Shown here: positions 6,248 through 59,826 of the stretch, one piece after another | Numbering within the stretch: position 1 is the stretch's first letter | How the letters are laid out: each line of letters opens with the position of its first letter | NCBI GenBank assembly: GCA_018818785.1 | Contig: JAHIRF010000002.1 | Span: 278,595 to 342,594, forward strand | Source: Thermoplasmatota archaeon | Lineage (GTDB): Archaea; Thermoplasmatota; Thermoplasmata; UBA10834 | Length of the DNA stretch: 64,000 bases | Reading direction: 5' to 3' | Notes under the pieces: generated by a model | The model's input: only the letters and a program-made list of their open reading frames with translations | Database searches by the model: none | What the model was told of the DNA's origin: nothing | Position numbers and translations under genes: made by a program

Positions 6248-7735
6248 GTGATGACATTCATTGTCGCTTCTATCGTAGAGAGAAGCGTCTCTGGAGTTTC
6301 GCGCTCGTCAAAGAAGGCGTTCAGTCTGGGTGCTGACCTCGTAGAGGTCAGATTAGATCTAATGGAAATCGACCGTATCGACACTGATTTCATGGCAAGG
6401 ATCAGGATGGCGGTCAAGGGACCCGCGATCGCCACCTTGAGGTCATACAAAGAAGGAGGAGCTTCCCGATTAACGAAAGCCGCGAGAAGGAAAGCACTGA
6501 AAGCGATTCTCAGGGCGGGTTTTGAATACATCGATCTTGAACTGGAGTCGGATGCAGATCTTCTCAAGGAGATTAAGAAGACACGAACCAGACCGGAAAT
6601 CATCGCATCCAGTCACTTCACGAGACCCGTGAAGGCGAGGGAGGCAGAGACAAGGCTTCGAAGGGCATGCAAAGCCGGGGATATCGGCAAGGTCGCCATG
6701 CCGTGTGAGGACGCGGGTCAGGCATTGATGCTCTCGGCCATATCCATGAAGTTCTCCATGAATGGTGAACGATTCACCTTGATTGGCATGGGGGAGCAAG
6801 GACGGATGACTCGTGTGTGCGTCCGTCAGATGGGTTCATCCATGGTCTACTGCTGCATGCCAGGCAAACCTGCTGCTCCAGGCCAATTGGATCTGAGAAC
6901 TCAGCTGAGTCTGTACAGGCGGGATAAGGTGGTTCTTGGATTGATAGGACACCCAGTTTCCCATTCAGTGTCCCAGCCGATGCAGGAAGCCGCTCTTGCG
7001 AGATCGGGGTTGATTGGAGCATACCTTCATCTCGATGTGCCTCCGAAGAACCTTGACCGAGAGATCCTCGAACGCTTCAGGAGCCTCGGCTTCAAAGGCC
7101 TCAATGTGACCATACCGCATAAGAAAAACGTGCACTCATTATGCGATAGATTAGGGCCTTCAGCCCTTGCGACGGGGGCGGTGAACACGGTGAGATTCGA
7201 GGCTTCAAGGATTTATGGAGAAAACACCGATGTAATAGGATTAACTCGGATGATTGAAGGAAAAATACGCATCTCGCCAGACGACTCCGCACTCATCGTA
7301 GGCGCAGGGGGAGCTGCAAGATCGGCAGCTTATGTGCTCTCCCATCTCGGGGCGGATGTCACAGTTGCTGCACGCAGCCTCAAGAAGGCAAAGGATGTCG
7401 CGTCCATGGTCGATGGGCATGCTCTTCCTCTGCCCCTCGAGGGAAAATGTCATTCATACGACATAGTGGTGAACTGCACGCCAATGGGAACAAAGAGTTC
7501 CGGAGGGAGGATCCCCATTCCCGCGCGCGTGTTCAAGAAGGGGACCATACTCTTCGATCTAGTCTACAACCCACCCATGACGAAGTCCATGAAGATCGCC
7601 ATATCAAGGGAGGCAAAGGCTGTCAACGGACTCGACATGTTGGTCCATCAAGGCGCCCAATCGTTCAGAATATGGACCTCCAAGGAACCGGATGTGAGGG
7701 CCATGTCCAGGGCTGCAAAGGGGGCATTACGATGA
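6248..7735 (+). CDS. aroDE: Fused 3-dehydroquinate dehydratase (type I) and shikimate dehydrogenase
   Basis: 495 residues with two enzymes in one chain. Residues about 1-215 are a type I dehydroquinase: EVRLDLME near the start, then EIIASSHFTRP-like EIIASSHF with the catalytic histidine and KVAMPCEDAG with the Schiff-base lysine. Residues about 225-495 are shikimate dehydrogenase: GLIGHPVSHSVSQPMQEAAL, NVTIPHKKNV with the catalytic lysine, ENTDVIG, the NADP-binding GAGGAARSAAYVL and the ending GLDMLVHQGAQSF. Either GTG 6248 or ATG 6251 could start it. The two enzymes usually are separate genes in archaea; a fusion would channel dehydroshikimate. Both halves keep their key residues. Confidence 0.93.
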   Translation: MMTFIVASIVERSVSGVSRSSKKAFSLGADLVEVRLDLMEIDRIDTDFMARIRMAVKGPAIATLRSYKEGGASRLTKAARRKALKAILRAGFEYIDLELESDADLLKEIKKTRTRPEIIASSHFTRPVKAREAETRLRRACKAGDIGKVAMPCEDAGQALMLSAISMKFSMNGERFTLIGMGEQGRMTRVCVRQMGSSMVYCCMPGKPAAPGQLDLRTQLSLYRRDKVVLGLIGHPVSHSVSQPMQEAALARSGLIGAYLHLDVPPKNLDREILERFRSLGFKGLNVTIPHKKNVHSLCDRLGPSALATGAVNTVRFEASRIYGENTDVIGLTRMIEGKIRISPDDSALIVGAGGAARSAAYVLSHLGADVTVAARSLKKAKDVASMVDGHALPLPLEGKCHSYDIVVNCTPMGTKSSGGRIPIPARVFKKGTILFDLVYNPPMTKSMKIAISREAKAVNGLDMLVHQGAQSFRIWTSKEPDVRAMSRAAKGALR

Positions 7736-8598
7736 TTGGGAGGGCCTCCTGCAGAGGGGCCGTGACGATAGTCAATGCCATTCCAACAGGGATCGGCTCG
7801 GCGATGGGCATCATGCTCCAGTTAGATGCAGAGGTGAGATTATCTCAGGATGATGGATCGGTCAGACTCGAAGGGACCGAAGAGGGGACCGATCTCGTCA
7901 GAGGATGCATCGAAGGTGTCGGCAGAAGAGCGGGCATGCGTGATCTAGGCGGCGTCGTAACCATCCGATCGGACATACCGATCTCAAGAGGACTGAAGAG
8001 CAGCAGCGCAGCGTCAAACGCAGTCGTTCTCGCAGCATCAAGGGCCTTGAACATCCACATGGGCGATGAAGAGATAATCGGGCTGGCCATCGATGAATCC
8101 ATCAAGGCCGGTGTGACGGTCACTGGTGCGTTCGACGACGCATCCGCATGTTTCCATGGGGGTGCAGTCATAACTGACAATAAAGCGAGGCGGATATTGA
8201 AGAGATGGCACGTTCAGGATCCCGTGACCGTGCTCCTGCATGTCCCAGAGAGGAGAATCCGAAAAGAGGATGTAAAGAACATGGATTTCAGCCCGGTCCG
8301 ATCCCAGGTGGAGGAAGCCATCGAAAGCGCACTGAAGGGAGACTACCCCAGGGCGATGGAGCTGAATTCAAAGGCCTGCTCGAAGATCCTCGATGTATCT
8401 GAGGAGGTTGCGGAAGCGGCCAGGAGATCTGGCGCCATCGCCGCCGGCATCTCGGGAACGGGACCGGCCACTGCAGTGCTCGCACGTCATGAGGATAGAG
8501 GGCGGATCATGGACATCCTGGAATCGTTCGATGGAACGATCATCTCAGCCGAACTCAACGACACACCAGCCAGGGAGGTGGTTCCGCGGCGATCATGA
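7732..8598 (+). CDS. aroK: Archaeal (GHMP-type) shikimate kinase
   Basis: 288 residues; ATG at 7732 overlaps the previous stop as ATGA. It belongs to the GHMP kinase family, not the bacterial P-loop AroK. Seen are an N-terminal substrate strand (AVTIVNAIPTGIGSAMGI), the GHMP phosphate loop PISRGLKSSSAASNAV, and the C-terminal AAGISGTGPATAVL. It phosphorylates shikimate to shikimate-3-phosphate. The position between shikimate dehydrogenase and EPSP synthase supports shikimate as substrate rather than homoserine, which is phosphorylated by a related GHMP enzyme. The length matches archaeal homologues. Confidence 0.92.
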   Translation: MIGRASCRGAVTIVNAIPTGIGSAMGIMLQLDAEVRLSQDDGSVRLEGTEEGTDLVRGCIEGVGRRAGMRDLGGVVTIRSDIPISRGLKSSSAASNAVVLAASRALNIHMGDEEIIGLAIDESIKAGVTVTGAFDDASACFHGGAVITDNKARRILKRWHVQDPVTVLLHVPERRIRKEDVKNMDFSPVRSQVEEAIESALKGDYPRAMELNSKACSKILDVSEEVAEAARRSGAIAAGISGTGPATAVLARHEDRGRIMDILESFDGTIISAELNDTPAREVVPRRS

Positions 8599-9857
8599 TC
8601 AAATCATCCACCGCGAGAGGCACGATTCTGGCGCCACCATCAAAATCGTACACACACAGATCGATGATCCTCGGCGCGCTCACCCATTCCGCATTCACTC
8701 TCAAGCACCCACTCATCTCGGAGGATACGCGAGCGACTCTAGATGCCCTGCAACTGCTGGGGGCCTCCATCACAGGAACTCAGACAGATATAGACATCAT
8801 CTGCGACAAACTGGCACCAGCGGCAGGCATCATAGATGCCAAGAACTCGGGGACGACCATGCGGCTGGTGACGGGCCTCGCCTCGTTGCTGCCAACCAAG
8901 ACCGCCATCACTGGGGATGCGAGCCTCATCAAGAGGCCCATGGCGCCTCTCATCGATGCGCTCACACAGCTGGGCGCTAGATGTGAGTATAAGGGGGTGC
9001 CTGGGAACCCACCTCTGACGGTGACAGGACCAATCACAAAAGATAGGACCACCATATCTGGGGCGGTCAGTTCCCAATTCATATCATCATTGATCATAGC
9101 ATGCACGCAGAAGCAGACAGATACCGATATCGAAATCACGGGAGGACTCGTCTCGAAGCCATATGTAGATATCACGCTTGAGATGCTCAGAGAGTTCGGG
9201 GCGCGCGTGGATATGTCCGGGAACGCATATCATGTGCCCGGAGATCAGAGATTCGTCCGTGACAGCTATACCGTTCCTGGCGATTATTCCTCTGCTGCAT
9301 TCCTGTTCGCAGCGGGTGCAATCACGGACGGAGACGTTATCGTCAAGAATCTGGATGCGAAATCCCCCCAGGGAGATAAGGCTATCCTGGACCACTTGAA
9401 GGATTTCGGCGCCGATGTGACAGTATCCGACGATTTCGCACGTGTCAGGGGAGGAAGGCTCGAGGGATTGGAGATAGACGTGGGAGACACCCCAGACCTC
9501 TTTCCCGTGCTTGCCGTGATCGGGGCGATCGCCGAGGGGAAGACCGTACTCAAGGGCGGACGGAACCTGAAACAGAAGGAAAGCGACAGGATCTTGACTA
9601 CGACCGAATTCCTGAGAGACATGGGAGCAAGGGTCAAGCCCACTGAGGATGGTTGCGAGATACTCGGAGGAGATAAACTCCGTGGTGCCAGCATCCAGAC
9701 CCATGGAGACCACAGGATTCTTATGGCCGCAGTACTTGCAGCTCTGGTATCGATATCAGGGACGACGATCGATGACGACGAATCGTACAAGGTATCCTAT
9801 CCAGGGTTCCTGAGAGACATGCATCAACTGGGATGTCGGCTCGAGGTGAGGAGATGA
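8595..9857 (+). CDS. aroA: 5-enolpyruvylshikimate-3-phosphate synthase
   Basis: 420 residues, ATG overlapping the aroK stop. Key blocks are present in order: PPSKSYTHRSMILGAL (phosphate-binding lysine and serine), KNSGTTMRLVTGL, SSQFISSLIIAC, the central DYSSAAFLFAAGA, KESDRILTTTEFLRDMG and GDHRILMAAVLAAL. It joins phosphoenolpyruvate to shikimate-3-phosphate. No residue loss was noticed. The stop overlaps the start of aroC. The initial region lacks the long N-terminal extension of plant enzymes and is of the usual prokaryotic size. Confidence 0.95.
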   Translation: MIKSSTARGTILAPPSKSYTHRSMILGALTHSAFTLKHPLISEDTRATLDALQLLGASITGTQTDIDIICDKLAPAAGIIDAKNSGTTMRLVTGLASLLPTKTAITGDASLIKRPMAPLIDALTQLGARCEYKGVPGNPPLTVTGPITKDRTTISGAVSSQFISSLIIACTQKQTDTDIEITGGLVSKPYVDITLEMLREFGARVDMSGNAYHVPGDQRFVRDSYTVPGDYSSAAFLFAAGAITDGDVIVKNLDAKSPQGDKAILDHLKDFGADVTVSDDFARVRGGRLEGLEIDVGDTPDLFPVLAVIGAIAEGKTVLKGGRNLKQKESDRILTTTEFLRDMGARVKPTEDGCEILGGDKLRGASIQTHGDHRILMAAVLAALVSISGTTIDDDESYKVSYPGFLRDMHQLGCRLEVRR

Positions 9858-10930
9858 ACGAGTTCGGAAGTAGATACAGAGTAGGCATCTTCGGATCCAG
9901 CCATGGCCCTTGCGTCGGAGCCAAGATTGAGGGATGCCCCCCGGGCTCTAGGATCTCGGAAGCCGTGATCCAGGTGGAGCTGGACCGACGATCCCCTGGG
10001 AAGGGTGTGCACACCACACCCAGGAAGGAGCGAGACAGGCTCGAGCTCATATCAGGCATTATAGATGGGAAGGCCACAGGGGCCACTATAGTCGGCCTTG
10101 TCAGAAACACCGACAAGGATTCATCGGCATATGATTCATTCAGGCGCGTCCCACGGCCAGGACACGCTGATTATCCATCCATGGTGAAATACCAAGGACA
10201 TCACGACCACAGAGGTGGAGGACAATTCTCAGGCAGGATGACGGCAGGCCTTGTGATCGCAGGCGCGATAGCGAGACAGGTAATCGGAAAGAAGGGGGTA
10301 GGAATAGTCGCCCAGACTGTCCAGATAGGCGGCGTGAAGTTGGACAAAGAAATACCTTCAAGCATTGCGGAGAGGGTCGCGAGAGCGAACGCGGTCGGCT
10401 GTGCGGACAGGAATGTCGCGAAGGAGATGATTGAAGAAATCGTCCGCGCCCATGAGAACAAGGACAGCGTCGGTGGAATCGTCAAATGCACTGTGCGTGG
10501 CGTTCCTGTAGGGGTCGGCGAGCCATTCTTCAATTCAATAGAGAGCGTAATGTCAGCGATGATGTTTTCCATACCAGGGGTCAAGGGTGTCGAGTTCGGA
10601 TCGGGGTTCAGGGCTGCCTCCATGACCGGGAGCGAGCACAACGACCCATTCATCGTCAGAAATGGCAAGATCGTGACCAAGACGAATAATGCGGGGGGGG
10701 TACTAGGCGGACTGTCGAACGGGATGCCCATAGAATTCAGGGTGGCGTTCAAACCGACATCATCGATCGCAGGACCCCAGATGAGCGTGGATATCCAGAA
10801 GAAGACGACCGTGGAACTGGAAGTGAAGGGAAGACATGATCCGTGTATAGTGCCGAGAGCGGTCCCGGTTGTGGAGAATTCCGCAGCGGCCGTCATACTG
10901 GATCTGATGCTTCAGGGGGGATCCATCTGA
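9854..10930 (+). CDS. aroC: Chorismate synthase
   Basis: 358 residues from ATG 9854, which overlaps the aroA stop and is preceded by GAGGTGAGG; an upstream ATG at 9833 lies inside aroA. Diagnostic blocks are GSSHGPCVGAKIEGCPPG at the N terminus, the flavin-site region KYQGHHDHRGGGQFSGR, and FGSGFRAASMTGSEHND. It makes chorismate from EPSP using reduced FMN. The C-terminal block KGRHDPCIVPRAVPVVENS is complete. The last codons overlap the CTG start proposed for tyrA. Confidence 0.95.
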   Translation: MNEFGSRYRVGIFGSSHGPCVGAKIEGCPPGSRISEAVIQVELDRRSPGKGVHTTPRKERDRLELISGIIDGKATGATIVGLVRNTDKDSSAYDSFRRVPRPGHADYPSMVKYQGHHDHRGGGQFSGRMTAGLVIAGAIARQVIGKKGVGIVAQTVQIGGVKLDKEIPSSIAERVARANAVGCADRNVAKEMIEEIVRAHENKDSVGGIVKCTVRGVPVGVGEPFFNSIESVMSAMMFSIPGVKGVEFGSGFRAASMTGSEHNDPFIVRNGKIVTKTNNAGGVLGGLSNGMPIEFRVAFKPTSSIAGPQMSVDIQKKTTVELEVKGRHDPCIVPRAVPVVENSAAAVILDLMLQGGSI

Positions 10931-12009
10931 GCAAGGATGAACTCGGAGCCCTGAGAAAAGAGATCGAGAGGATAGACTCGGAGATCATGACGCTCATCGC
11001 CAGGAGGGAGGATGTCTCACACGAGATCGGACTCGTCAAGAAGAGGGGCGGGCTCAAGATCAGAGATATACCCAGGGAGAAGAAGGTCGTTGGAACGATG
11101 ACCGCAATGGCAAAGTCCCTCAATGCGAACAAGGACATCACAAAGGAGATCTCACGACTCCTGATAGCCGATTCCGTCAATGTGCAGAAGGGAGCCAGGC
11201 GTGAAGGGCTGGAGGGCAAGAAAGCCGTCGTGGTCGGAGGATCCGGCAAGATGGGGGAGTGGATGTGCAGATTCCTATCGAACAGAGGCGCGGAAGTGAA
11301 GGTCTGGGACCCCCGAGGCCGGCTAAAAGGATACTCGAATGTGAGACTACTTGACCAGGCGATCAATAGCAGCGACATCATAATCGTGGCGAGCCCGCCT
11401 GGCCTGTGCCCGGACGACCTGCGGAGAGTAGTATCGGCGCGCCCTTCCGGACTCATATTCGACATCTGCAGCATAAAATCACATATAGCAGGCATATTGA
11501 GACTCGGGGCAGCAGACGGGTTGAAGGTCACGAGCGTCCACCCGATGTTCGGACCAGGTGCACCTTCCGCGAAAGGGATGAACGTGGTAATATGCGACTG
11601 CGGATCGAAACAGGCGACCGACGAGGCAAAGGAGATGTTCGGGTTCGCGGGAGCGAATATTACACGACTTTATCTTGAGGAGCACGATCAGATGATGGCA
11701 TACATACTCGGCCTATCTCATGTCACTAGCCTGCTGTTCGGCACCACGCTCGCATCCTCTGGGATGTCTTTTGCGCAGCTGCAGAGCGTGCAAGGGCCGT
11801 CCTTCGCGAGACTGGCCGCGCTGGCAAAGGATATATCTGGAGAAAGTCGACGCGTGTATCATGACATACAGGCGCTCAACCCCAGGACGAAGGAGATGCT
11901 CGACATCATGGAGAGCAGCCTCGGCAAGATCAAGGATGCGGCAATCGAGAAAGAACACGATGAATTCATCCAGCTAATGCATTCAGTGAAGGAATACACG
12001 GAGGGCTGA
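10927..12009 (+). CDS. tyrA: Chorismate mutase-prephenate dehydrogenase fusion, probable CTG start
   Basis: About 360 residues. Residues 1-85 are an AroQ chorismate mutase (LRKEIERIDSEIMTLIARRE, then LVKKRGGLKIRDIPREKK). From residue about 97 there is a prephenate dehydrogenase: the NAD-binding GGSGKMGEWMCRFL and VHPMFGPGAPSAKGMNV. It turns chorismate into hydroxyphenylpyruvate for tyrosine. No ATG, GTG or TTG lies between the aroC stop and residue 21, and starting at that methionine would delete the first mutase helix. A CTG at 10927 overlaps the aroC stop as CTGA and has GGGGGG 6 nt upstream, so it is taken as the start. The upstream ATG at 10843 lies deep inside aroC. Confidence 0.88.
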   Translation: MSKDELGALRKEIERIDSEIMTLIARREDVSHEIGLVKKRGGLKIRDIPREKKVVGTMTAMAKSLNANKDITKEISRLLIADSVNVQKGARREGLEGKKAVVVGGSGKMGEWMCRFLSNRGAEVKVWDPRGRLKGYSNVRLLDQAINSSDIIIVASPPGLCPDDLRRVVSARPSGLIFDICSIKSHIAGILRLGAADGLKVTSVHPMFGPGAPSAKGMNVVICDCGSKQATDEAKEMFGFAGANITRLYLEEHDQMMAYILGLSHVTSLLFGTTLASSGMSFAQLQSVQGPSFARLAALAKDISGESRRVYHDIQALNPRTKEMLDIMESSLGKIKDAAIEKEHDEFIQLMHSVKEYTEG

Positions 12010-54951: not shown

Positions 54952-57900
54952 TCATGAACCCTTGTCGAGGATGTCGACCCATTCTGCCTCTCCGATCTCA
55001 TCCTCGGCCTGCCAGGAACCAGGTTTGAACTCATTTGACATGTATACCTGGAGCATCTCCTGCACGCCCTTGAGCGACTTCATCGTCCCGTTCCATCGAA
55101 TGATCCTATCGGAATACCTTTCTTCGATGTCACGGAGCAGCATCTCGAGGGAAGTGAAAACCTCCTTTCGTGGCCAGCCCGAGTATATCATGGCGATGTA
55201 GACGGACTTCCCCTTCTCGATGATGACACTCTTGTCTCCGATCTCGAGCTTCTTCAATCCTACCTCGCCCTGCTGGAAAGAATCACGCACGAATTCCTGG
55301 ACCGCAGTGAACATGGCACTAACCACATCATTGTCCATGTTCGTGTTCTCTGTCTCAGTGACATGGGCGATAAGCCTGCCATCGTTGTGAATCAGGAAGA
55401 GGTTCTCAAGGGAGTATGGCCGTGGCATCCTCATGGCGGCGAAGTAGCTCGCAATTCCGGCAGCCAGCAACACCAATGGGAAAGTGTACGGCCATCCAAT
55501 CTTCTCGGCCATCGTCTTAGTCACACCGACATTGAAGCTGACCTTATTGGATGTCGCGCCGTCACCATCCGTCGCTTGAAGAGTGACCGTGATAATGTCC
55601 ACATCATCTGGCAGGCTAACGTAGAGATAATTGCCGACGATGCTCACGTGCAGATCAGGGATTGCGGATATCACGAGCGAACTATATGGCGTCTCACTGT
55701 CGATGAAGAATTGGCAGATAATGTAATGGGAGTTCCTCGGCCAACCCTTGAACACGAAATCATGAATCGGCAGGATGATAGGTGCATCATTCACTGGCGT
55801 CACCGATACTGTGACCCTCCATGAAACCCAGGCACCGTGGGAGTCCGTGGCAACGAATCCAAGGATTTCGTTACCGGACCAGTTGACCGCGGCCGTGAAG
55901 TTGACCACGCCATCGGGATATATCATGGCGTGTATGTTCGGAGTCGCACTCCCATAGACGACCCTGTACGACAGGTCTGTGTCATCGACATCATAGAATA
56001 GCAGATCCAACTTCAGAGAGTTGTTGAGATAGGTATCCTCCGGGAACGAGATCAGTGTTGGATATGGGATTGGGTATGTGATTGCAGGAGGGTAGTTGTC
56101 GCTCACGACCACGCTGAAGTTGAGCATCGCGGATGCATCTTCAGGATCAGCGACGGTCATACCCACCTTGACGATGTAGGGGCTTGTGAACGCTCCACCG
56201 CTGAGGTTCGCAGGAAAGAGCAGCTCGATCATTCCATCGGAATAGGTTGCATTTGGACTGTCAAATGAGAAGGTCAGCTCCTCCAGAGTATGATCGGGAT
56301 CAGAAACGTACATGCTTGCATCAATCTTAGTTGTCACATCGTAACGCACGTGAATATCATTGATTGGAGAGATCGAGGGAGGATCGTTCACCGCAAAGAC
56401 CGTCACCGTGATCGTATCTGTCTTGAAGGCGCCAGTTGGGTCCATGGCCGTGAGGGTACCCTCCGTGACTCCGGACCATTCGAACGGAGCGGACATGTAG
56501 ACTTCGTGTGTTTCCTGATCGATGAATATCACTATGTTCTCGAAACCGTACTGATAGACGAGATAATCTTCGGGATCCTGGTCGAAGAAGAAATCATCCA
56601 GATCGAAGGCATAGACATTGAGGTCGCCCTCGTTCAATTCCATATCCGGCAACGTGTCTTTCAGGGACGGTGGCGTATCATCCGTCACCCATATGACGAC
56701 ATTGAGATAATCGGAATTGGTCGAATCTGATAGCGCGACACTGGCAGCATCAGTCAGGGTGATTGTGATGATTTCGAAGTAGCGGTTGATCCCATCCTTC
56801 TCCAGGAAGAGGAATGTCGAGATCAGATGGTCGAACAGAACATCACCGTAGTCTGAAGATTCGGCGAACATCAGCAGGTTGCTCTTCGCGTTGTCGACAT
56901 CTGCTACGTAGTAACTGTAGTCGATGACGTAGGGGGTTGAAAACTTGACATATATTTCGGTCGGGGGACTGTGGACGAAACGCGGTCTGTCGTTCACTGG
57001 CTGGATGCTCACCACTATATCTTGATAGGTGGAGAATCCGTCAGGGTCCCTTACCCAGAGCCTGAATGTATCTGAGCCGAATTTGTCGGGTTGTGTGTAA
57101 AACTTCACGATCGCCTCAGATGATGGATCATGCGTGACCAAGTAGAGCGAAGTATCGACGTTCTCCGCGAACCACTTCAGACCCGCTGTGCCGTTGGTGT
57201 GATGCCAATATGAAGTGAGACTAAGGCTCCACGCACTATCTTCCGTAGCGATCTGTGTCGGTATGGTGCTGAGTCTCGGACCATTCAGCGCATTCGTGAC
57301 GGTCACATTGATCGAAGCGCGTATGGAACCATACGTGACCTCTATCACCCCTGATTCAGGGATGTACCCTGCGGTGTAGGTAACGGTGGTCCCGCTGCCA
57401 ACTATAGTTCCAGAGGTGCTCGTGCTCCATGTGGCACCGGATATGCTGACAATGTTGCTATACGAATCGTAGCCCGTTGCCACAAGTACTTGGCTTTGAC
57501 CTTCGGGGATCGATAGCGATCCGCTTGGAGACAATGCAATCCTCGCCAGACTCCCAGCGACAACCGTGATATTCACATTCACATATCTGCCGGTCGCAGG
57601 ATCGGAGCAGTTGATGCCACCAACACCGTCATTCACTGCGATGAAGGAGATGGTCATTCCGGAGCCGGAAATCGTCCCGACACTGCCAAACACTGACCAC
57701 GATGGCGACCAAGAGGAGTTCTCGTTCCCAAGCGAATCCAGTCCGACCACTGTGAAAGACATGATCGATCCAGAGGGAAGGGAGGTGATGGGACCCGCAG
57801 GATTAATGGACATCGTACTGACGGGACCGCTCCATACACGAATCTCATCGCTGTAGCCGAAACAGGAGTTCGAAGATGCGATAAGGATTATCATCTCTTC

Positions 57901-59178
57901 GCCCGCATCGTAGGACTGGTCCTCGATAGTGAATACACCATTCTCCGTCCCATCGAATTCTATTGTTATGACATCAAGTGATCCAGATGAGGATGTCATA
58001 GTCTCTGAAAAGACCGGTTCGATCTCGACAGTGCCTCTCCAGCTCGGGACAATCTCTCCGGCCGAGTCCAATGCGGTGATAGTCATCTCGAATTCCTCGC
58101 CAGCGATGATGCTGCTCGGAGTTATGACTTCGAAATGGTCTGCTGTGACTACCGATATGGAAGATGTCAACCAGGTCGGAGTACCCAATGCATCATAGCC
58201 ATACACCGTCAGATTGAAGGTTCCGTTGCACAAATGATCGAGAGTGATCGAGAGCAGCTTCCAGGACGGATTTGAGGACGAATCCTGTGAAACCAGGGTC
58301 AAAGGAGTCGATGGGACGCACACGGTCCCGTTGCCGGAATATGCAACTTCGAGATAGGACTCGCGGATATCATATGCTCCGAACGGGTTCGATACATTCG
58401 CATATACAACAATCTCCTCAGTGTCGACGAACACGGTCCTGGATGCTCCCGATTCATCTTCCGTCCATACCTCGTCCACGCTTATGAAATCCCTGGTCGG
58501 AACAATCAGGTATGAATCGAACACATCATTGTCATAGAGGATCGTCAGACCATCATTGATCGAATCCGCCCTCATGATGGTCAACACGAGAGAGTGGCCG
58601 GTAGCCAGCACATAATCTATTCCGAGGATGTTGAGATCGTATGCTTTCCATGACGAATATATTGGACCAGCCAGCGCAATCGTGGCACTTCCCATGACGG
58701 TCCACGAGCTGGGGCTGTAGAAAGTGGATGGAGCCATGTCAGACAACGTTATGGTCATCATCGATCCCGATTCGTTATCCCTGGAGGCAGCCCAGATGTG
58801 GGCCGAGATGTCGCCCTGGATGCTCACGTCAGAGTTCACCGGTGGGGATAGCACCCAGAAATGCCTCCAACGCTGAGATGGAAGGTTCTTCTTGATCGTT
58901 ATTCCGAGTAATCCATCTGAATCGTAATCGAGGTTGCTGGGATTCTGAGGGATCGAAGTGTTCAGCCAATCATAGTCCCCCGAGGAGACAGGACTTCCTT
59001 CATGCATGCGCAGCAAATGGTCCCAGGAAGTCAGGGAATCCGCAGAGACGTTGACGGGATCGTCCCCGATCATCATAAGGACTGAGCCAGATACCATCAG
59101 TACTGCGAGAAGCACGGCGAGTGAGCCTCTCAGAATGCGAGCATGACGACTGCAACCTCCTGCAGGAACTTCCTTCAT
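54952..59178 (-). CDS. Giant surface receptor: Ig/cadherin-like ectodomain, one TM, cytoplasmic roadblock/longin-like domain
   Basis: 1408 residues. A basic N terminus with a signal helix (SLAVLLAVLMVSGSVLMM) leads to an ectodomain of roughly 1190 residues. Its first half has Ig/Big-like units (ALDSAGEIVPSWRGTVEIEP, GLDSLGNENSSWSPSWSVFG); the second half has cadherin-like units introduced by VNDRP, VNDPP and VNDAP with conserved Asp-Pro/Asp motifs. One helix (about 1228-1248) precedes a 160-residue cytoplasmic domain that reads like a small roadblock/longin fold: LENLFLIHNDGRLIAHVTET, SAMFTAVQEFV, KLEIGDKSVIIEKG, VYIAMIYSGW. A Ras-like GTPase gene lies directly upstream on the same strand. 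A signalling or adhesion receptor is inferred. Confidence 0.82.
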   Translation of the reverse strand: MKEVPAGGCSRHARILRGSLAVLLAVLMVSGSVLMMIGDDPVNVSADSLTSWDHLLRMHEGSPVSSGDYDWLNTSIPQNPSNLDYDSDGLLGITIKKNLPSQRWRHFWVLSPPVNSDVSIQGDISAHIWAASRDNESGSMMTITLSDMAPSTFYSPSSWTVMGSATIALAGPIYSSWKAYDLNILGIDYVLATGHSLVLTIMRADSINDGLTILYDNDVFDSYLIVPTRDFISVDEVWTEDESGASRTVFVDTEEIVVYANVSNPFGAYDIRESYLEVAYSGNGTVCVPSTPLTLVSQDSSSNPSWKLLSITLDHLCNGTFNLTVYGYDALGTPTWLTSSISVVTADHFEVITPSSIIAGEEFEMTITALDSAGEIVPSWRGTVEIEPVFSETMTSSSGSLDVITIEFDGTENGVFTIEDQSYDAGEEMIILIASSNSCFGYSDEIRVWSGPVSTMSINPAGPITSLPSGSIMSFTVVGLDSLGNENSSWSPSWSVFGSVGTISGSGMTISFIAVNDGVGGINCSDPATGRYVNVNITVVAGSLARIALSPSGSLSIPEGQSQVLVATGYDSYSNIVSISGATWSTSTSGTIVGSGTTVTYTAGYIPESGVIEVTYGSIRASINVTVTNALNGPRLSTIPTQIATEDSAWSLSLTSYWHHTNGTAGLKWFAENVDTSLYLVTHDPSSEAIVKFYTQPDKFGSDTFRLWVRDPDGFSTYQDIVVSIQPVNDRPRFVHSPPTEIYVKFSTPYVIDYSYYVADVDNAKSNLLMFAESSDYGDVLFDHLISTFLFLEKDGINRYFEIITITLTDAASVALSDSTNSDYLNVVIWVTDDTPPSLKDTLPDMELNEGDLNVYAFDLDDFFFDQDPEDYLVYQYGFENIVIFIDQETHEVYMSAPFEWSGVTEGTLTAMDPTGAFKTDTITVTVFAVNDPPSISPINDIHVRYDVTTKIDASMYVSDPDHTLEELTFSFDSPNATYSDGMIELLFPANLSGGAFTSPYIVKVGMTVADPEDASAMLNFSVVVSDNYPPAITYPIPYPTLISFPEDTYLNNSLKLDLLFYDVDDTDLSYRVVYGSATPNIHAMIYPDGVVNFTAAVNWSGNEILGFVATDSHGAWVSWRVTVSVTPVNDAPIILPIHDFVFKGWPRNSHYIICQFFIDSETPYSSLVISAIPDLHVSIVGNYLYVSLPDDVDIITVTLQATDGDGATSNKVSFNVGVTKTMAEKIGWPYTFPLVLLAAGIASYFAAMRMPRPYSLENLFLIHNDGRLIAHVTETENTNMDNDVVSAMFTAVQEFVRDSFQQGEVGLKKLEIGDKSVIIEKGKSVYIAMIYSGWPRKEVFTSLEMLLRDIEERYSDRIIRWNGTMKSLKGVQEMLQVYMSNEFKPGSWQAEDEIGEAEWVDILDKGS

Positions 59179-59280
59179 GAACTTAAGCCGCCCCTTGACT
59201 CTCTGCAGGATTTCATAGCCGATGCTTGGCTTATAAGGATTATTAATTCGTTATCAGGGTTGGTAATGGACCACTGGCTA

Positions 59281-59823
59281 CTACCTTGAGCCCATCTTCT
59301 CCGAGACTGCGAGACCGAGAGCCTTGAAGACATCCTCGACGCCCTGGCCAGTCTTCGCGCTGGTCATGAACGATTTGGCCTTGTACTTGGAGGCCAACTC
59401 CTGGAGTTCCTCGTCCTTTATTACCCTCTCATTCTCGAGATCTGCCTTGTTCCCCGCGAACACTATCGGCACATCACCCGCGACATCGGTCAGGGCCTTT
59501 ATCCAATACCTGAGTTCTTCGAGGGTCTCCTTGTTCGTCAAGTCACAGACCGCGATTGCCCCGTGCGCCCCGAAAAAGTATGCTTCGCGCAGGAGTTCGC
59601 GGAACCCTTTCTGACCCATGATATCCCAGATGAGCATCATGACCTTCACCGTGGTTCCCTGGTCACTGACCTCAACGATCTTCTTCGTAACCTTGGTCCC
59701 AATGGTTGCGATATATCTATCGTCGAAGACGTCGAGAACAAATCTCTTGATAAGGCTAGTCTTACCTACGCCTGCGTCTCCAATGAAGCAAATCTTAACT
59801 TTCATGAGGTCATCATCGTTCAT
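59281..59823 (-). CDS. Ras-superfamily small GTPase
   Basis: 180 residues from ATG 59823, with GGAGGG 6 nt upstream (TTG 59826 precedes it). All G motifs are present in Ras/Rab order: G1 GDAGVGKTSLI, G2 threonine in IATIGTKVTKK, G3 LIWDIMGQKGF (WDxxGQ), G4 AGNKADLEN and G5 TSAKTGQGV. It has no C-terminal prenylation cysteine. Such small GTPases in archaea are related to Rab/Rag/MglA types; partners with roadblock/longin folds are the usual regulators, and the downstream receptor gene ends in such a domain. Function is unknown; signalling from that receptor is inferred. Confidence 0.9.
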   Translation of the reverse strand: MNDDDLMKVKICFIGDAGVGKTSLIKRFVLDVFDDRYIATIGTKVTKKIVEVSDQGTTVKVMMLIWDIMGQKGFRELLREAYFFGAHGAIAVCDLTNKETLEELRYWIKALTDVAGDVPIVFAGNKADLENERVIKDEELQELASKYKAKSFMTSAKTGQGVEDVFKALGLAVSEKMGSR

Positions 59824-59826
59824 CAA

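Follow-up and report, generated by a model that had tools for sequence, protein, structure and literature searches.

In the SRP receptor, the SRX longin of SR-alpha meets the small GTPase SR-beta at the membrane; the GTPase is the membrane-anchored partner and the longin protein is soluble. More generally, longin/roadblock dimers are conserved docking platforms for small GTPases, mainly GEFs and sometimes GAPs (PMC10933270). In TRAPP, Bet3-type subunits are paired with longins and activate a Rab (PMC10933270), and Bet3 has its prokaryotic relative in V4R (PMC2253512). Receptor-linked roadblock-GTPase modules exist in bacteria, namely MglA-MglB and the conservons. In Myxococcus, the Ras-like GTPase MglA, which lacks the G3 Asp, is genetically linked to a small α/β platform of the roadblock/longin superfamily, the soluble homodimeric roadblock protein MglB; no Rup gene coupled to MglB was found by Wuichet and Sogaard-Andersen (PMC4316618). 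The actinobacterial conservons (CvnA-D) encode a membrane sensor, a roadblock-type protein and a small GTPase together, the sensor being histidine-kinase-like and separate from the roadblock protein (PMC13343842).

Among archaea, longins and Rab-like GTPases are known from Asgard lineages. In Asgard strain MK-D1, the GTPase genes are generally not located in operons with longin genes (PMC10933270), which makes it hard to match GTPases with their regulators in this group. In the Asgard papers on longins, roadblocks and Rabs, the text searched describes no longin-tailed surface receptor. Rab-like GTPases were also noted in Thermoplasmatales and Aciduliprofundum, at one copy per species, in a text that mentions neither longins, roadblocks nor operons (PMC4915359). 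These proteins belong to the same phylum as the GTPase analyzed here and probably to the same broad group. In the open-access literature searched, we found no paper reporting a surface receptor whose tail is a longin, and no description of a longin, roadblock or V4R protein paired with a small GTPase in Thermoplasmata.

The window studied in this work is a stretch of 64,000 nucleotides from a Thermoplasmatota genome of 1.97 Mb (12 contigs, 94.5% complete), and relatives of the locus in the database carry the label of Thermoplasmata or Euryarchaeota MAGs. A Rab-like GTPase gene and, after a gap of 102 bp, the gene of a large surface protein lie in tandem (Table 1), as had been noted in a sequence-only reading that placed a Ras-like GTPase directly upstream of an Ig/cadherin-like protein of 1408 residues. 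The GTPase ORF spans 59281-59826; its start is better placed at 59823, where the sequence-only reading had also ended the pair, because codon 2 is an ATG. The neighbouring genes encode AsnS, FolC, a DUF885 peptidase and a permease, in place of the four-gene conservon set of kinase-like sensor, roadblock protein, CvnC and GTPase.

Table 1. Features of the GTPase-receptor locus (positions in the window; residues are those of the receptor)
Feature	Position	Strand	Basis
Rab-like small GTPase gene, 180 aa	59281..59823	-	Pfam Ras match, structure matches, five G motifs; without lipidation signal
Candidate promoter element TGATAACGA (TGATAAC-type), ~11 bp upstream of the TATA box CTTATAAG	59230..59256	-	Intergenic regions of 10 orthologous loci
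Single-pass surface protein, 1408 aa, with C-terminal cytoplasmic longin domain (predicted fold)	54952..59178	-	ORF, profile searches, tail model
Predicted signal peptide (residues ~1-46)	59041..59178	-	Hydrophobic core after basic residues
N-terminal jelly-roll domain, modelled (residues ~103-231)	58486..58872	-	AlphaFold2 model, Foldseek
Ig/cadherin-like beta repeats (residues ~340-1228)	55495..58159	-	NCBIfam tandem-95, Big_9, Cadherin_4 (weak)
Transmembrane helix (residues ~1229-1248), then Arg-rich MRMPRP inside	55435..55494	-	Sequence; ortholog hydropathy
Cytoplasmic longin domain, modelled (residues ~1256-1380)	55039..55413	-	AlphaFold2 model, structure matches, conservation profile
Disordered C-terminal peptide with conserved EWVDIL motif (residues ~1391-1408)	54955..55008	-	pLDDT <50 yet conserved in orthologs

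The GTPase matches the Pfam Ras family with an E-value of 4e-38, and its closest solved structures are the Rabs Ypt6, Rab1 and Rab8. All five motifs that had been read from the sequence are intact (G1 GDAGVGKT, G2 YIATIG, G3 WDIMGQ, G4 NKAD, G5 TSAK). Since G3 retains both the Asp and the catalytic Gln, the protein has the features of Rab/Ras small GTPases, known in prokaryotes as the Rup type, in contrast to MglA. We call it only Rab-like because its C-terminus (AVSEKMGSR) contains no prenylatable Cys, a trait of Rabs sensu stricto. Inspection of the sequence also revealed no amphipathic N-terminus, and a membrane-anchored partner would thus solve the localisation of this GTPase. Two GTPase paralogs of the same genome (L003:1201-2109 and L005:1471-2298) share a helical C-terminal extension of ~90 residues that corresponds to no Pfam family.

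The receptor is composed of a signal peptide, a jelly roll, Ig/cadherin-like repeats, one transmembrane helix and a tail of 160 residues, for which the sequence-only reading had left the choice between a roadblock and a longin fold. We modelled the tail with AlphaFold2 from 12 homologs (mean pLDDT 75, pTM 0.71). The predicted strand and helix order is b-b-a-b-b-b-a-a, a five-stranded sheet with helices that does not have the N-terminal helix of roadblocks. Foldseek ranked zeta-COP, Sec22b and Ykt6 as the top matches, while VIA-align gave Z-scores of 14.7 for Sec22b, 14.1 for Vamp7 and 13.9 for Ykt6, with Sec22b and Ykt6 aligned over 125-126 residues. Other longin-fold structures followed, including AP sigma subunits (Z 12-13), TRAPP subunits (Z 11-12) and the Lokiarchaeota longin 8yqg (Z 11.3). 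Given the helix order and the lead of longins in both fold searches, the tail is a longin domain in its predicted structure, and its identity as a roadblock was rejected, which sets it apart from MglB as well. Profile searches against Pfam, NCBIfam and PDB returned no significant family for the tail. The scores of curated models were below significance for both Fuz_longin_1 (E 0.038, in 2 of the 12 members) and Robl_LC7 (E 0.047), and a DUF5017 match (E 0.002) in one member, located at the disordered C-terminal end, was judged to be due to chance. With an identity of 0.81 at residues 1251-1300 compared to ~0.4-0.6 in the ectodomain, the tail is the best conserved segment of the receptor. Judging from its conservation, the EWVDIL-bearing peptide at the extreme C-terminus may be a short binding motif.

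Assignments are less firm in the ectodomain. The jelly roll was modelled at a mean pLDDT of 62, with 70-90 across most of its core, and at moderate confidence it resembles the C-terminal domain of CocE/X-Pro dipeptidyl peptidases, with CocE and X-prolyl peptidases retrieved by Foldseek and Pfam PepX_C at only E 0.12. As this model is just moderately confident, no ligand is claimed for the receptor. The repeats match NCBIfam tandem-95 in three stretches (E 1.9e-17, 63 bits against a cut-off of 90) and Pfam Big_9 (E 5e-4, 21.4 bits against a cut-off of 23.6); a Cadherin_4 match is weak.

The gene pair is retained in relatives, one of the checks that had been proposed for it: the receptor gene is immediately preceded by that of the same GTPase in all eight orthologous loci from the genome-contig scan and in one further family member (L052), i.e., in 9 of 9 loci, and the two genes are not rarely neighbours. 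However, AsnS, FolC, the DUF885 peptidase and the permease are also syntenic at these loci as far as the contigs extend. Because the entire neighbourhood is preserved, pair conservation among orthologs is weak evidence, and we set it aside as proof of a functional link. Furthermore, a comparison of 10 orthologous loci revealed a TATA box between the two genes in every case, with CTTATATG in place of CTTATAAG at one locus. This conserved box weakens the idea of a simple operon, to which the GTPase and receptor probably do not belong, and points to a separate promoter of the receptor. The TGATAAC-type element on its 5' side is nearly invariant in the window, at L014-L021 and at L052, and could possibly be a binding site for a regulator or TFB.

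Stronger evidence, from beyond the orthologous locus, was obtained from a survey of the tail domain and the GTPase family in 244 Thermoplasmatota genomes; outside the phylum, coverage of the tail consisted of one scan for close relatives. The tail domain was detected in 30 genomes. Of these, 28 also encode the GTPase family, compared to 5 of the 214 genomes that lack the tail. At the genus level, the corresponding numbers are 21 of 22 tail-bearing genera and 3 of 98 others (Fisher 3e-19), a count that corrects for shared ancestry only in part. The copy numbers of the two components are correlated (rho 0.73), and in three taxonomic families (f6, f8, f9) each component is present as a single copy. 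The genome that harbors the window encodes three additional tail domains. Two of them terminate large surface proteins, one with FG-GAP/PKD domains and the other a paralog of the receptor, and the third belongs to a two-TM longin protein of 217 residues, the gene of which lies immediately upstream (63 bp) of a second Rab-like GTPase gene.

Physical linkage of the genes recurs as well. Under a chance expectation that presumes uniform gene placement, and with a count by family as a partial correction for shared ancestry, 12 tail copies (in 11 proteins) lie less than 1 kb from a GTPase gene against 0.66 expected, and adjacency occurs in eight taxonomic families against 0.63 expected. A TM helix precedes the adjacent longin in five of the eight (f1, f4, f5, f29 and f34), and in the remaining three (f10, f19 and f25) the domain is inserted in AAA_16-TPR ATPases. 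On a maximum likelihood tree of 72 GTPases, longin adjacency requires nine changes, of which at least six are forced by well-supported branches, so the arrangement did not arise just once. Nevertheless, the majority of GTPase genes and the majority of longin genes in this phylum have no neighbour of the other kind. Gene fusions between a GTPase and a longin were absent from the loci examined.

When proteins encoded near ~75 GTPases were clustered without preselection of longins, the longin-containing cluster, in which some members are joined via TPR/AAA or repeat domains, ranked first across many families, followed by V4R-DUF835 proteins. V4R proteins have the Bet3 fold and are mostly fused to DUF835; their genes overlap those of Rab-like GTPases or directly adjoin them in at least ten families of Thermoplasmatota (L004:1480-2921, L078, L081, L082, L084, L086, L087, L097, L105-L111, L115 and L117), the first of these loci being contig C7 of the same genome as the window, where the GTPase gene overlaps that of a V4R-DUF835 protein. 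No description of such an arrangement was found in the literature searched. Since longin and V4R both recur beside the GTPases, the folds of these neighbours are those of the TRAPP core, in which the longins Bet5 and Trs23 and Bet3-fold subunits accompany Rab1/Ypt1. The two systems have in common a longin fold, a Rab-like GTPase and a V4R/Bet3 relative, and they differ in that the longin here is a surface-receptor tail or an ATPase insert and V4R is fused to DUF835. Counterparts of the TRAPP core parts are thus present in this phylum and genetically linked to GTPases, and these shared folds are hypothesized to reflect a common machine. MglB-type roadblock genes are located directly beside V4R genes at L073:1059-1815 (C7:17.5-18.2 kb of the same genome), L077 and L075, and this adjacency is a further link between those two fold families.

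Taken together with the modelled fold of the tail, the topology of the receptor and the intact GTPase motifs, the co-occurrence and recurrent adjacency lead us to favor, with moderate confidence, an interpretation in which the tail serves as a membrane-anchored platform for the soluble Rab-like GTPase, where we infer both the binding and the direction of regulation. The sequence-only reading, in which the tail binds or regulates the GTPase, is thereby supported in part. The receptor would then probably pass signals from outside to a Rab-like switch. Paired with each other, two longin tails would make up a dimeric platform fixed to the membrane, and the GTPase encoded by the adjacent gene, possibly along with its paralogs, would dock there in the manner of Ypt1 on the TRAPP longins or MglA on MglB. 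Binding of a ligand or contact with a surface via the ectodomain, with its jelly roll and Ig-like repeats, might alter the spacing or clustering of the tails and, in turn, the recruitment and nucleotide state of the GTPase, with the platform acting as a GEF or a GAP. The GTP-bound form could then engage cytoplasmic partners, plausibly including V4R-DUF835 proteins. In comparison with the SRP receptor, a longin and a small GTPase would again be combined at the membrane with the anchored partner reversed, being the longin here. Against this platform interpretation, in several cases the longin protein near the GTPase is a soluble AAA_16-TPR ATPase and not a receptor, and longin domains also function in SNAREs and adaptor complexes, where they do not regulate GTPases.

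The main rival, which the same co-occurrence and adjacency would also fit, is signalling in the opposite direction, with the tail as an effector to which GTPase-GTP binds and thereby changes adhesion or clustering, as Rap1 does for integrins. The GTPase would in this case be switched by another factor, e.g., a V4R-DUF835 partner or a roadblock protein. The V4R protein could indeed be the regulator, because V4R-DUF835 genes adjoin those of GTPases in many families even where the longin receptor is encoded elsewhere, and the weak repeat matches and the jelly roll suggest an adhesive character for the ectodomain. The two directions look alike at the level of sequence; however, longin/roadblock platforms with a known role for small GTPases are mostly GEFs or GAPs (PMC10933270), and we regard the effector role of the tail as rather unlikely.

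The tail might otherwise be independent of the GTPase and serve this lineage as a general module for assembly or sensing, the co-occurrence being caused by joint expansion in larger, signalling-rich genomes. Its presence within AAA_16-TPR ATPases and in tandem (L059) is in line with this possibility, as are the lack of a TM helix right before the domain in about half of the sampled copies and the location of most copies away from GTPase genes. Yet the single-copy families still keep both components, 209 of the 214 tail-less genomes also lack the GTPase, and the recurrence of adjacency in eight families includes the ATPase versions; given the co-occurrence, we consider a GTPase-independent tail improbable. 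An accidental neighbourhood, i.e., synteny inherited in one family, would suit the shared flanking genes and the separate promoter of the receptor but is highly improbable in view of the independent adjacency at other loci and in other families, the genus-level co-occurrence and two loci (L017 and L019) where the pair is intact although DUF885 was not found beside it.

If the tail is a membrane platform for the GTPase, the pair bears on the origin of the Rab-longin-TRAPP partnership, for which a non-Asgard genome now offers candidate pairs of GTPase and regulator. Tentatively, some archaea of the phylum Thermoplasmatota could possess a network of Rab-like switches that is coupled to receptors and assembled from TRAPP-core parts, i.e., Rab-like GTPase, V4R and longin, in which the longins either form receptor tails at the surface or are inserted in STAND-type ATPases. 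If such a network is ancient, the partnership of Rab, longin and Bet3 would have started out in signalling at the surface and not in vesicle traffic, and would not be confined to Asgard. Known routes of inward signalling are rare for archaeal surface proteins, and the tail and its GTPase provide a concrete, testable candidate.

Several other arrangements of longin proteins were noted. At four loci (L058:4807-7479, L060:3183-5759, L063:6992-10048 and L066:7678-10791), the longin lies within the AAA_16 domain of TPR-containing STAND-like proteins, with GTPase genes adjoining or near. The tandem case (L059:6199-8097) is a multi-TM protein with two longin domains, and a convergent GTPase gene lies 3 bp away. 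The gene of the FG-GAP/PKD longin receptor (L010:6469-12491) is followed by that of a small membrane protein which by eye resembles the DUF92 family; at L031, L037, L038 and L069, a DUF835 gene follows. Finally, the receptor paralog on contig C10 adjoins a protein that appears by eye to be of the response-regulator type (L011:4808-6694 and 6743-11746), hinting at crosstalk with two-component signalling.
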